Source: Sphingobacteriales bacterium (GTDB lineage Bacteria > Bacteroidota > Bacteroidia > Chitinophagales > CAIOSU01). From it: DNA of 64,000 bases. The DNA lies in contig JAIXUD010000006.1 in NCBI GenBank assembly GCA_027483645.1, positions 1 to 64,000 of the forward strand, in the 5' to 3' direction. Below are positions 42,569-45,343 of this stretch, one piece after another. Within the stretch, counting starts at the first letter, position 1, and each line of letters starts with the position of its first letter. Under the pieces are notes generated by a model that was not told the origin of the DNA, did not search any database, and saw only the letters and a list, made by a program, of their open reading frames with translations. The translations under genes were made by a program, and so were the position numbers.

Positions 42569-44476
42569 ATGAAGAAACTGCACGAAATAGTAACCGAGCT
42601 AGAAGCCGAGCTAGCCACCTGCACCCCTGAGGATTACCCAAGGGTGTGTGTGGAGCTTTGTAAGCATTTGAATTTTGTGGATACCATTAGAACCGCTGAT
42701 TTGGTAAAGGGCCTATTGACAATTGAAGGTATTTCCAATACACCCATCTACCATGTCGAGGCGCTTACGTTAGCAGCTAGCAGTGCCATGAACCAAATAA
42801 ACCCTAAAGAGGCAGAAGAATTTGCTAACCAAGCATTTGAAATAGCAGAAAAAAATGATTTGGAACAGCAAAAGCTCTATGCACAAAATGAGCAGGTTGT
42901 CTCCTATTTGTTCGGTGGTAAATTGCCTGAAGCTATTGCCCTAGGGGAAGAAATTCATCACTGCGCAGAAGCTATCTGTGATATTGAACTACTATTTGCG
43001 ATAAAAAGTACAATGGTACATGTTTATAATCAGCATGACCATAAAAAGGAAGGCATAATTGCATTTGAAGCATTGGAACTGTCGAAACTCTTAGGGAAAG
43101 TTTGGCTTCAGGGTTACATAACTTATCTCATTGGTTTTTGGTCAAGAGCTATTGGTCAAAAACAGGAGGCTTTTTTTTATATGGAGGAGGCTAGAAATCT
43201 GTTTTTAGAACAAGGTGCAAAAGAATACTTAATCAATGCATCTACAACTTTGGCCAATAGTTATTGCAATAATGGAAACTTTGATTATGCAATAGAACTC
43301 CAACAGCAGGCCCTAATAGCTGCAAAACAAATGGGCAATCCTCGTCAAATAATAGTAACTACGTACCATTTTGGACTTACTTATCAGCGAGCCCAGGATT
43401 ATTCTAGTGCTGAGCGGTTGTTCCTTGAAGCAATAAGTATGGCAAAACGCTATTACAATTCTTTTGAAGAAGCAAGTGCTTCTACTTATTTAGCTAATCT
43501 CTATGAAATTTTAGAAGAGCACGAAAAAGCTATTGATTGGTTTGAGCAAGCCACACAAGCGTATGGTTCTACAATCGGCATTCGAGATAAAATGGTCATT
43601 GCCAACCACCTTAACAAGCTTTATGCAAAAGTAGGCAACCACCAAAAAGCATATGAACACTTATTGAACTTCCTAGACATAAAACTCAAACTCCAAGACG
43701 AAGCCCGCATCAAAGAAACCACCAAACTACAGCAGCTCTACGAAAAGGAAAAGCGCGAAACCGAGCTGCGCGAGTTGACCATCAAACAGCAACAAACCGA
43801 ACTGGAGCAAGCTGAAAGCGAGCTAAAGGCCATACGAGCGCAAATGAACCCGCACTTTATCTTCAATGCGCTTAATACCATACAGAGCTATATATACCTT
43901 AACGACAAGCAGAACGCCAGCAACTACCTCGGTAAATTTAGTCGCCTTACGCGTATGATATTGGATATGAGCAACCATGAGGTAGTAAGCCTAAAGGATG
44001 AACTGGAAGCCCTTACCCTGTACTTACAGTTGGAGCGGATGCGATTTGAGGAAGTGCTCACCTTCAATATTGCGATTGCCGATGCGCTGGATACCGAGAG
44101 CATCAAACTACCGGCCATGCTGATACAACCTTATATCGAAAACGCTATCAAGCACGGGCTCCTGCACAAAAAAGATAACCGTGAACTACTGTGCAGTTTT
44201 GACCTAAATGGCGGTAACTTGATAGTGCGTATTGATGATAACGGCATCGGTAGGCAGCGGTCAATGGAGATGAATGCCACTAAGGGGGGCGACCATAAAT
44301 CGTTTGCCACTAATGCCAATGCCAAGCGGTTCAGCCTACTCAACAAAAACAGTGATGATACTATTGGCGTGGTCTATACCGATAAAACAGATGCGGATGG
44401 ACAACCCAAGGGCACATTGGTGGTGTTGACGATACCGGTGCAGTTTGATGGGGTTTTGGCGGCTGGGCAGGTATAG
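42569..44476 (+). CDS. Sensor histidine kinase, LytS-like with TPR input region
   Basis: 635 aa, cytoplasmic, no membrane helix. About 1-360 is a series of TPR-like helical repeats (e.g. EEASASTYLANLYEILEEHEKAIDWFEQA). About 385-425 is a coiled coil. The His_kinase domain (PF06580 type) has His429 in MNPHFIFNALNTIQSYI, and the HATPase has QPYIENAIKHGL and DDNGIGR. This pairs with the LytTR regulator 132 bp downstream. A -7-like TATATTTG lies at 42549-42556, but no suitably placed -33 was found. Confidence 0.93.
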   Translation: MKKLHEIVTELEAELATCTPEDYPRVCVELCKHLNFVDTIRTADLVKGLLTIEGISNTPIYHVEALTLAASSAMNQINPKEAEEFANQAFEIAEKNDLEQQKLYAQNEQVVSYLFGGKLPEAIALGEEIHHCAEAICDIELLFAIKSTMVHVYNQHDHKKEGIIAFEALELSKLLGKVWLQGYITYLIGFWSRAIGQKQEAFFYMEEARNLFLEQGAKEYLINASTTLANSYCNNGNFDYAIELQQQALIAAKQMGNPRQIIVTTYHFGLTYQRAQDYSSAERLFLEAISMAKRYYNSFEEASASTYLANLYEILEEHEKAIDWFEQATQAYGSTIGIRDKMVIANHLNKLYAKVGNHQKAYEHLLNFLDIKLKLQDEARIKETTKLQQLYEKEKRETELRELTIKQQQTELEQAESELKAIRAQMNPHFIFNALNTIQSYIYLNDKQNASNYLGKFSRLTRMILDMSNHEVVSLKDELEALTLYLQLERMRFEEVLTFNIAIADALDTESIKLPAMLIQPYIENAIKHGLLHKKDNRELLCSFDLNGGNLIVRIDDNGIGRQRSMEMNATKGGDHKSFATNANAKRFSLLNKNSDDTIGVVYTDKTDADGQPKGTLVVLTIPVQFDGVLAAGQV

Positions 44477-44480
44477 CGTG

Positions 44481-44584
44481 CGAGCTGGAAGCTCGAAATT
44501 ACTAAGTCCTCGTTGGAAACGAGGACTAGCGAATACTCGTCCGCGCTTTTAGCGCGGATGCAATAACAGCGAGCTTCCAGCTCG
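44481..44584. repeat. Cruciform of three perfect palindromes between kinase and regulator
   Basis: Outer perfect 15-bp arms 44481-44495 and 44570-44584 (CGAGCTGGAAGCTCG and its complement) enclose two perfect hairpins: 44506-44526 (GTCCTCGTT-GGA-AACGAGGAC) and 44541-44557 (CCGCGCT-TTT-AGCGCGG). The three-way-junction layout fills nearly the whole 132-bp gap between two co-directional, functionally linked genes. Confidence 0.9.
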
Positions 44585-44608
44585 GATACCTTATTAATAA
44601 ACATTTGC

Positions 44609-45343
44609 ATGAAGGCCATAATCATTGACGATGAAACCAAAGCACGGCAGCTATTGCAGGCCATGCTGCAAGATTATTGCCCAGAGGTAACCGTAGTGGC
44701 CGAGGCCGATGACTTGCCTAACGGCATCAAAGCCATCAAGCGCCATGCGCCCGATGTGGTCTTCTTGGATATTGAAATGCCAGGCCATAGCGGATTGGAA
44801 CTGCTCGACTTCTTCAATGAAGAGGAGGTAAACTTTCAAATCATCTTCGCGACGGCTTACAATCAATATGCCATCAAAGCCTTTAAGCTTTCGGCGGTGG
44901 ATTATCTACTGAAACCCATTGATGTTGACCAGTTGAAAGATGCCGTGGCCCGTGCACAAAAGCAACAAGAAAAACATACCACCAGTTATCAACTGCTCAA
45001 ACACCAGCTAAGCAGCGATAGCAAAGGCAAACTGGCCCTACCACAAGCCAATGGCATTAAATTCATCCCCTTTGGCGATATCCTCTTCCTAAAAGGAGAC
45101 CGTGCCTATACCGAGATACATTGCACCGATGGGCAGATGCAACTCGCCAGCCGCAACCTGAAGTATTTTGAAGATGCCTTGGAAAGTAGCCCACAATTTT
45201 TCCGCAGCCACCGCTCCTATATAGTAAACGTACAAGCCATTAAAGAGTATGTACGTGCCGATGGCGGCTACCTGCTAGTTGGCAACCACCAAGTAGGCAT
45301 CTCCAGCGAAAAAGTGGATGCGCTGATGGGGCTGATGCGGTGA
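44609..45343 (+). CDS. LytTR-family response regulator
   Basis: 244 aa. The receiver domain (1-120) has Asp54 in FLDIEMPG and Lys in YLLKPID. The C-terminal LytTR DNA-binding domain (about 140-244) has IKFIPFGDILFLKGDRAYTEI and FFRSHRSYIVN. Cognate partner of the TPR/LytS-like kinase just upstream. Target promoters cannot be identified here. Confidence 0.94.
   Translation: MKAIIIDDETKARQLLQAMLQDYCPEVTVVAEADDLPNGIKAIKRHAPDVVFLDIEMPGHSGLELLDFFNEEEVNFQIIFATAYNQYAIKAFKLSAVDYLLKPIDVDQLKDAVARAQKQQEKHTTSYQLLKHQLSSDSKGKLALPQANGIKFIPFGDILFLKGDRAYTEIHCTDGQMQLASRNLKYFEDALESSPQFFRSHRSYIVNVQAIKEYVRADGGYLLVGNHQVGISSEKVDALMGLMR

Follow-up and report, generated by a model that had tools for sequence, protein, structure and literature searches.

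A palindromic gap between two linked genes

Two linked genes on the same strand, one for a histidine kinase and one for a response regulator, are separated by a conspicuous palindrome, which raises the question whether this structure serves the two genes or has a different origin. In the window (the whole 64-kb stretch of DNA analyzed here), 132 bp (44477 to 44608) separate the last position of the kinase ORF, 44476, from the first of the regulator ORF, 44609. The features of this gap and its two neighboring genes are listed below; the covariance model R1 and the alignment A1 are described in the next section.

42569 to 44476, + strand: TPR-containing histidine kinase gene (His_kinase, PF06580), upstream of the element; ORF and domain match
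44478 to 44529, + strand: REP unit a, two hairpins, ATTA at the GTTA position, ends in CTAG; R1 (67.9 bits) and A1
44481 to 44495, + strand: hairpin 1 of unit a, the left 15-nt outer arm; sequence and fold
44505 to 44527, + strand: hairpin 2 of unit a, 10 bp, loop GGA
44536 to 44587, - strand: REP unit b, two hairpins, GTTA at 44567 to 44564, CCGCGC-type hairpin 2, ends in CGAG; R1 (68.6 bits)
44540 to 44558, - strand: hairpin 2 of unit b, 8 bp, 3-nt loop
44570 to 44584, - strand: hairpin 1 of unit b, the right 15-nt outer arm; sequence and fold
44609 to 45343, + strand: LytTR-type response regulator gene (PF00072 and PF04397), downstream of the element; ORF and domain match

The preliminary description of this gap reported perfect 15-bp outer arms enclosing two hairpins, and the sequence bears this out. 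The outer arms (44481 to 44495 and 44570 to 44584) are perfectly complementary, and they enclose one inner hairpin of 10 bp (44505 to 44514 with 44518 to 44527) and one of 8 bp (44540 to 44547 with 44551 to 44558), each with 3 nt between its arms. The predicted folds lie far beyond those of dinucleotide-shuffled sequences, both as RNA (44470 to 44615, -64.3 kcal/mol versus a shuffled mean of -37.0, z -7.5) and as DNA (44478 to 44587, -39.5 versus -15.9, z -10.7), with 0 of 200 shuffles as good in either case. The first hairpin begins after a 4-nt spacer behind the kinase stop codon.

What had been overlooked is that each 15-nt outer arm is also self-complementary and makes a hairpin of its own (CGAGCT-GGA-AGCTCG), so that the element has an alternative fold with four hairpins, two in each of two inverted units; this is the organization of the whole repeat family to which it belongs. 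Units a (+) and b (-) lie only 6 nt apart and thus form a close inverted REP doublet, the arrangement termed a REPIN (PMC3116915). Within the window, the only full matches to R1 are these two units, both of which were among the 32 sequences from which the model was built; two other matches are partial and weak.

The units belong to a dispersed, structurally conserved repeat family

The preliminary description had also raised the possibility of a mobile palindrome, and copies are indeed found elsewhere. A search of the element's own genome for CGAGCTGGAAGCTCG yielded 18 matches at 0 to 2 mismatches, compared with 3 for a backwards control; seven were exact, two of these being the element's own arms. 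When the whole gap was searched against the same genome, 22 matches were obtained at E<=10, a count that includes the gap itself and cases in which a palindrome matched its own reverse strand. The strongest match other than the gap itself was to the left pair on contig C9, with 81% identity over about 108 nt.

We aligned 32 of 38 unit sequences (alignment A1), leaving out two out-of-register matches and four near-duplicates. In the resulting 52-nt consensus, hairpin 1 (CGAGCT-nnn-AGCTCG) is followed after two bases by GTTA and after another five bases by hairpin 2 (TCCTCGCT-nnn-AGCGAGGA), and the unit closes with C-n-AG. In most units, GTTA stands five bases ahead of the point where hairpin 2 begins to pair. 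Column statistics, calculated for the 35 of 39 units that share one length, showed a conservation of 91 to 97% per position for GTTA and of 97% for the terminal AG, directly past which conservation falls. Both hairpins carry compensatory changes: 96.4% of cells are paired, and 30 cells show a double change, compared with 9.2 in shuffles. Of the five shuffle measures, two were no higher than chance: pairs with a double change numbered 4 versus 3.4 (211 of 500 shuffles as high), and further pair types numbered 8 versus 9.3 (498 of 500 as high).

The covariance model R1 found 33 matches at E<=0.01 in the own genome (G000), 29 of them strong, and 15, 31, 24, and 2 in four congeners (G001 to G004, respectively), although for G000 to G003, whose units were used to build the model, this is partly by construction. 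At this threshold, G005 and G006, which represent two further genera within the family, gave no matches, and G007, a genome of the same order, gave 29 weaker ones, so that 6 of the 12 genomes (own genome included) harbor matches. As 150 candidates were scored per genome, some matches may have escaped the search, and the weakest matches may be due to chance. Among 13 own-genome loci that we inspected, none lies inside a long ORF, and one (on C13) lies inside a 106-amino-acid ORF of doubtful reality; the copies elsewhere sit in other, unrelated gene contexts. The units are thus dispersed, mostly extragenic, and multicopy, as is expected of REPINs.

To describe how units are paired, we considered the 90 strongest of the 103 matches in G000 to G003. 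Neighboring units are mostly inverted, in the order -,+ in 28 cases (9 to 26 nt apart) and +,- in six, whereas +,+ and -,- neighbors occur five times and once, respectively; most are thus in the order opposite to that of the element. Four of the six +,- pairs are located at loci of a REP-associated tyrosine transposase (RAYT), and the other two are the element studied here (6 nt apart) and a pair on contig C17 of G002 (10 nt apart).

Two sets of pairs (L003/L040/L054 and L039/L055/L056) have flanks that, as judged by eye, are each common to three species of the genus. The apparently unchanged place of these pairs suggests that movement is slow or lies in the past, and parts of the repeat family are thus apparently inherited in place.

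Units flank a RAYT gene on contig C9

A 185-amino-acid ORF on contig C9 (L009:1722-2279) matches the Y1 transposase domain (Y1_Tnp, 3.6e-8) and the NCBIfam family NF047646, REP_Tyr_transpos (1.3e-21), the latter with 77 bits and so just below the cutoff of 80. A profile made from this protein and two homologues weakly matches Y1 transposases of solved structure, including TnpArep 4er8 (E 0.0047). The motifs NHLH, YIHQNP, and SS of the C9 protein agree with those of TnpA_REP subclass 2.6 of the Bacteroidetes (NH[LIV]H, YIH[QN]NP, and SS). The W motif reads WE in the C9 protein and WQ in a homologue on C5, WQ being the form listed for the subclass.

The C9 RAYT gene lies between a unit on the - strand (70154 to 70205) and one on the + strand (70794 to 70846), and three further units are found outside these. 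In total, three units upstream of the gene and two downstream of it fall within 250 nt. The two adjoining units are inverted, with hairpin 1 facing the gene. The genome therefore encodes a RAYT flanked by the same repeats, as is characteristic of REPINs and their cognate transposases, and a RAYT of 79% identity in G003 is likewise flanked by units.

The C9 locus might also be the source of the element. Among the 29 strongest own-genome matches, the element is the only +,- pair away from the RAYT gene. In addition, one of its units has a hairpin 2 of the CCTCG type and the other has one of the CCGCGC type, as is also the case in both C9 pairs and the C17 pair of G002; the narrower combination of a CCTCGTT hairpin with a CCGCGC hairpin is present in the element and both C9 pairs. 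Together, the pair order and the shared hairpin 2 combination suggest that the element derives from the C9 RAYT locus.

Is the association between units and RAYT genes confined to the loci that went into the model? We examined 80 RAYT loci, which were the best 80 of 474 relatives and were found by protein similarity, and left out L093, as it is the locus of the congener G002. The proteins at the remaining 79 loci are at most 59% identical. At 17 of these 79 Bacteroidota loci, an R1 match (E<=0.01) lies within 250 nt of the gene, and 17 further matches lie farther off; the other 62 loci hold no R1 match within 250 nt at this threshold. Among the matches within 250 nt, a few of which are hairpin 2-only matches that overlap a full one, 14 of 18 upstream matches are on the - strand and 15 of 16 downstream matches on the + strand. 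The association therefore does not stem solely from the loci used to build the model.

RAYT-like sequence is also found at L067 (contig C233 of G007, a genome from another family of the order), in the form of two ORF fragments beside weaker units. The own genome holds further Y1_Tnp ORFs at C5:3604-3822, C21:179335-179523, and C22:20080-20244 (L032 to L034), which have no R1 match at E<=1 within their 1.5-kb flanks.

Relation to known repeat systems

The system resembles the REP/REPIN (BIME) and RAYT systems of Escherichia coli and Pseudomonas in that many short intergenic palindromes, mostly inverted doublets, adjoin a gene for a Y1 HUH transposase. It differs in its unit. Canonical REPs are described as bearing GT[AG]G at the foot of a single hairpin structure (PMC6006769), whereas the units found here span 52 nt and contain two hairpins, with GTTA before the second; GT[AG]G was not found at the foot of the hairpin or up to 2 nt from it. 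Most units instead have GTTA, five bases before hairpin 2 begins to pair, and unit a has ATTA.

There is also a likeness to TnpA_REP subclass 2.6 (Bertels group 5). According to the relevant passages of Quentin et al. (2018, PMC6006769), this subclass is mostly found in Bacteroidetes, and the structures that flank its genes are atypical, lack GT[AG]G, and have copies elsewhere. Phylum, the three shared RAYT motifs, and the flanking structures all agree with this. The differences are the W motif, WE instead of WQ, and the mention of weaker structures in those passages, the units being comparable by description only. Palindromic repeats flanking a RAYT-like gene are also known from TIRtrons, some of which are reported to have "double palindromic" terminal repeats and some to be dispersed (PMC3733652); this likeness, too, is one of description. 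Lastly, the two-hairpin layout, the several copies per genome, and the proximity to Y1 transposase genes are shared with the Rfam family Acido-Lenti-1 (RF01687, 46 positions). This family differs in sequence and in its neighboring transposases, which carry the motif of subclass 1.2 and not of 2.6.

In sum, the structure is real and of an ordinary type, a REPIN-like element that goes with a family of Bacteroidota RAYTs, and its unusual part is the two-hairpin unit. What looked like a regulatory structure turns out to be a member of a transposase-linked repeat family. For the repeats around subclass 2.6-like RAYTs, this provides a concrete description (hairpin 1, GTTA, hairpin 2, and AG; in the units adjoining the C9 gene, hairpin 1 faces the gene), which makes the recognition rule of the RAYT testable.

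The kinase and regulator genes do not appear to require the element

Among 11 relatives searched, only the congener G004 has an orthologue of the kinase at E<=1e-60 (64% protein identity). Its orthologous pair of genes lies 92 nt apart and is without the element, which argues that the operon does not need the element there. The G004 gap cannot be aligned with the element's flanks, and neither a transposition event nor a clean empty site was seen. More distant genomes gave DNA matches to the kinase or the regulator; among five of these loci that we examined, L053 of G016 is a candidate orthologous pair in which a kinase-type ORF ends 10 nt before the regulator ORF, leaving no room for such an element.

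Given the dispersed copies, the inverted pairs, the compensatory changes, the units flanking RAYT genes both here and in some other Bacteroidota, and the absence from the orthologous operon of a congener, we consider it very probable that the element is a REPIN-like, nonautonomous pair belonging to the subclass 2.6-like RAYT (TnpA_REP) encoded on C9. The suspected mobile palindrome is therefore well supported as to its kind, judging from sequence comparisons: a family dispersed in the genus, mostly as inverted pairs, and around a RAYT gene. In such a scenario, the RAYT would recognize the folded single strand by its hairpins and the GTTA preceding hairpin 2, would cut near the conserved 3' AG, and would copy or move the pair into intergenic DNA; the copy studied here would have landed directly behind the kinase gene. 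Several points weigh against this reading: the pairs with flanks common to three species, the NF047646 score just below the cutoff, the WE motif, the 62 RAYT loci with no R1 match close by, the two shuffle measures at chance, and the prevailing -,+ order. On balance, it is most likely a hitchhiking mobile palindrome rather than a switch made for the two genes, and most likely it plays no dedicated part in their two-component system. A side effect is plausible: once inserted, the very stable structure 4 nt past the stop codon may lower translation of the kinase, or it may shield the upstream mRNA at its 3' end. In E. coli, REPs that lie no more than 15 nt from a stop codon are reported to be able to stall ribosomes (PMC12306157, citing an earlier study). 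Some tuning of the kinase gene may thus be a by-product of the insertion.

It is tempting to speculate that the element, having arrived as a mobile pair, was recruited and now matters for kinase expression. Its position directly behind the stop codon and the E. coli precedent would fit this idea. Against this stands the fact that the element is absent from G004, the one relative of the 11 in which the kinase was found, and we regard such a recruitment as rather unlikely.

We consider it very unlikely that the gap encodes a dedicated cis-regulatory RNA. In this reading, which takes up the tuning by a three-way junction suggested in the preliminary description, an intercistronic junction would set the ratio of kinase to regulator via attenuation or mRNA protection. 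The position between two linked genes on the same strand, the very stable RNA fold, and a start that falls inside the 15-nt range of the ribosome-stalling REPs would all be in line with such an RNA. However, the same family occurs at many unrelated loci and the orthologous G004 gap does without it, for which reasons tuning as the purpose of the structure is not supported and a regulatory RNA as its origin was rejected. Likewise, no Rfam family reaches its gathering score at the gap, and no terminator-like site is present on the + strand between 44300 and 44750. A coding-strand transcription terminator was accordingly discarded as a candidate, the scan having returned a - strand site only, at chance frequency. 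One sigma-70-like site (44594 to 44622) was found, which is the number expected by chance in a scan that does not cover Bacteroidota promoters.

Finally, it is highly improbable that the element is a noncoding RNA gene related to Acido-Lenti-1. The resemblance of the - strand of unit a to that family (24.7 bits, E 9e-4) would favor this reading. Against it, the match stays below the gathering score of 37, none of 10 Acido-Lenti-1 matches in the own genome exceeds the cutoff, and the family itself has the traits of a DNA repeat linked to transposases. On the first two of these grounds, membership in the family was also rejected.

Some Acido-Lenti-1 copies lie beside transposases with the subclass 1.2 motif

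Acido-Lenti-1 matches at E<=1e-4 were found in 47 of 296 genomes of the phylum; they exceed the cutoff in 28 genomes, and 28 of the 47 have more than one match. Starting from transposases, we took 15 genomes with Acido-Lenti-1 and examined 30 of their 84 transposase matches as loci. At eight of these 30 loci, from seven of the 15 genomes, an Acido-Lenti-1 match (E<=0.01) lies within about 1.5 kb, in six cases over the gathering score. The Y1 transposases at these eight loci (L211, L212, L216, L220, L221, L227, L229, and L231) have the form DHxH or NHxH followed by YIxNQxxHH. This last motif, which marks subclass 1.2 and was searched as one regular expression, occurs at 13 of the 30 loci, including all eight with the repeat; none of the other 17 loci has the repeat. 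Copies are found on both sides of the gene at L211, L212, L221, and L231, where their direction at L221 is opposite to that at L211 and L231 and is mixed at L212.

The reverse approach, starting from the best Acido-Lenti-1 locus of each of 30 genomes, gave no RAYT-like ORF (0 of 30, and likewise 0 of 28 control loci) with an HMM built from the 80 RAYT loci, and Rfam at gathering thresholds detected no Acido-Lenti-1 at 19 of the 80 RAYT loci. The 2018 survey lists no REPs for subclass 1.2 (PMC6006769), and the literature passages on Acido-Lenti-1 that we consulted give no link to a transposase.

Two-hairpin ("bipartite") REP units might represent a general architecture of Y1 transposase systems outside the Proteobacteria, with the element's family serving the 2.6-like RAYTs and Acido-Lenti-1 serving subclass 1.2, a proposal for which we see the chances as evenly balanced. 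If it is true, a curated family of "RNA genes" would in reality be a mobile DNA repeat. The findings also suggest that annotated Acido-Lenti-1 ncRNAs, to which a recent paper ascribes a possible part in the regulation of Tannerella proteases (PMC13298647), may be remnants of mobile repeats.

The element's own genome encodes three more Y1 transposases, at C2:178217-178561, C10:667434-667778, and C1:82217-82558 (L028 to L030). Their Y1_Tnp scores are much stronger than that of the C9 RAYT, two of them contain YIANQHEHH, and a partial Acido-Lenti-1 match (14.6 bits) lies about 140 nt from the gene on C2.
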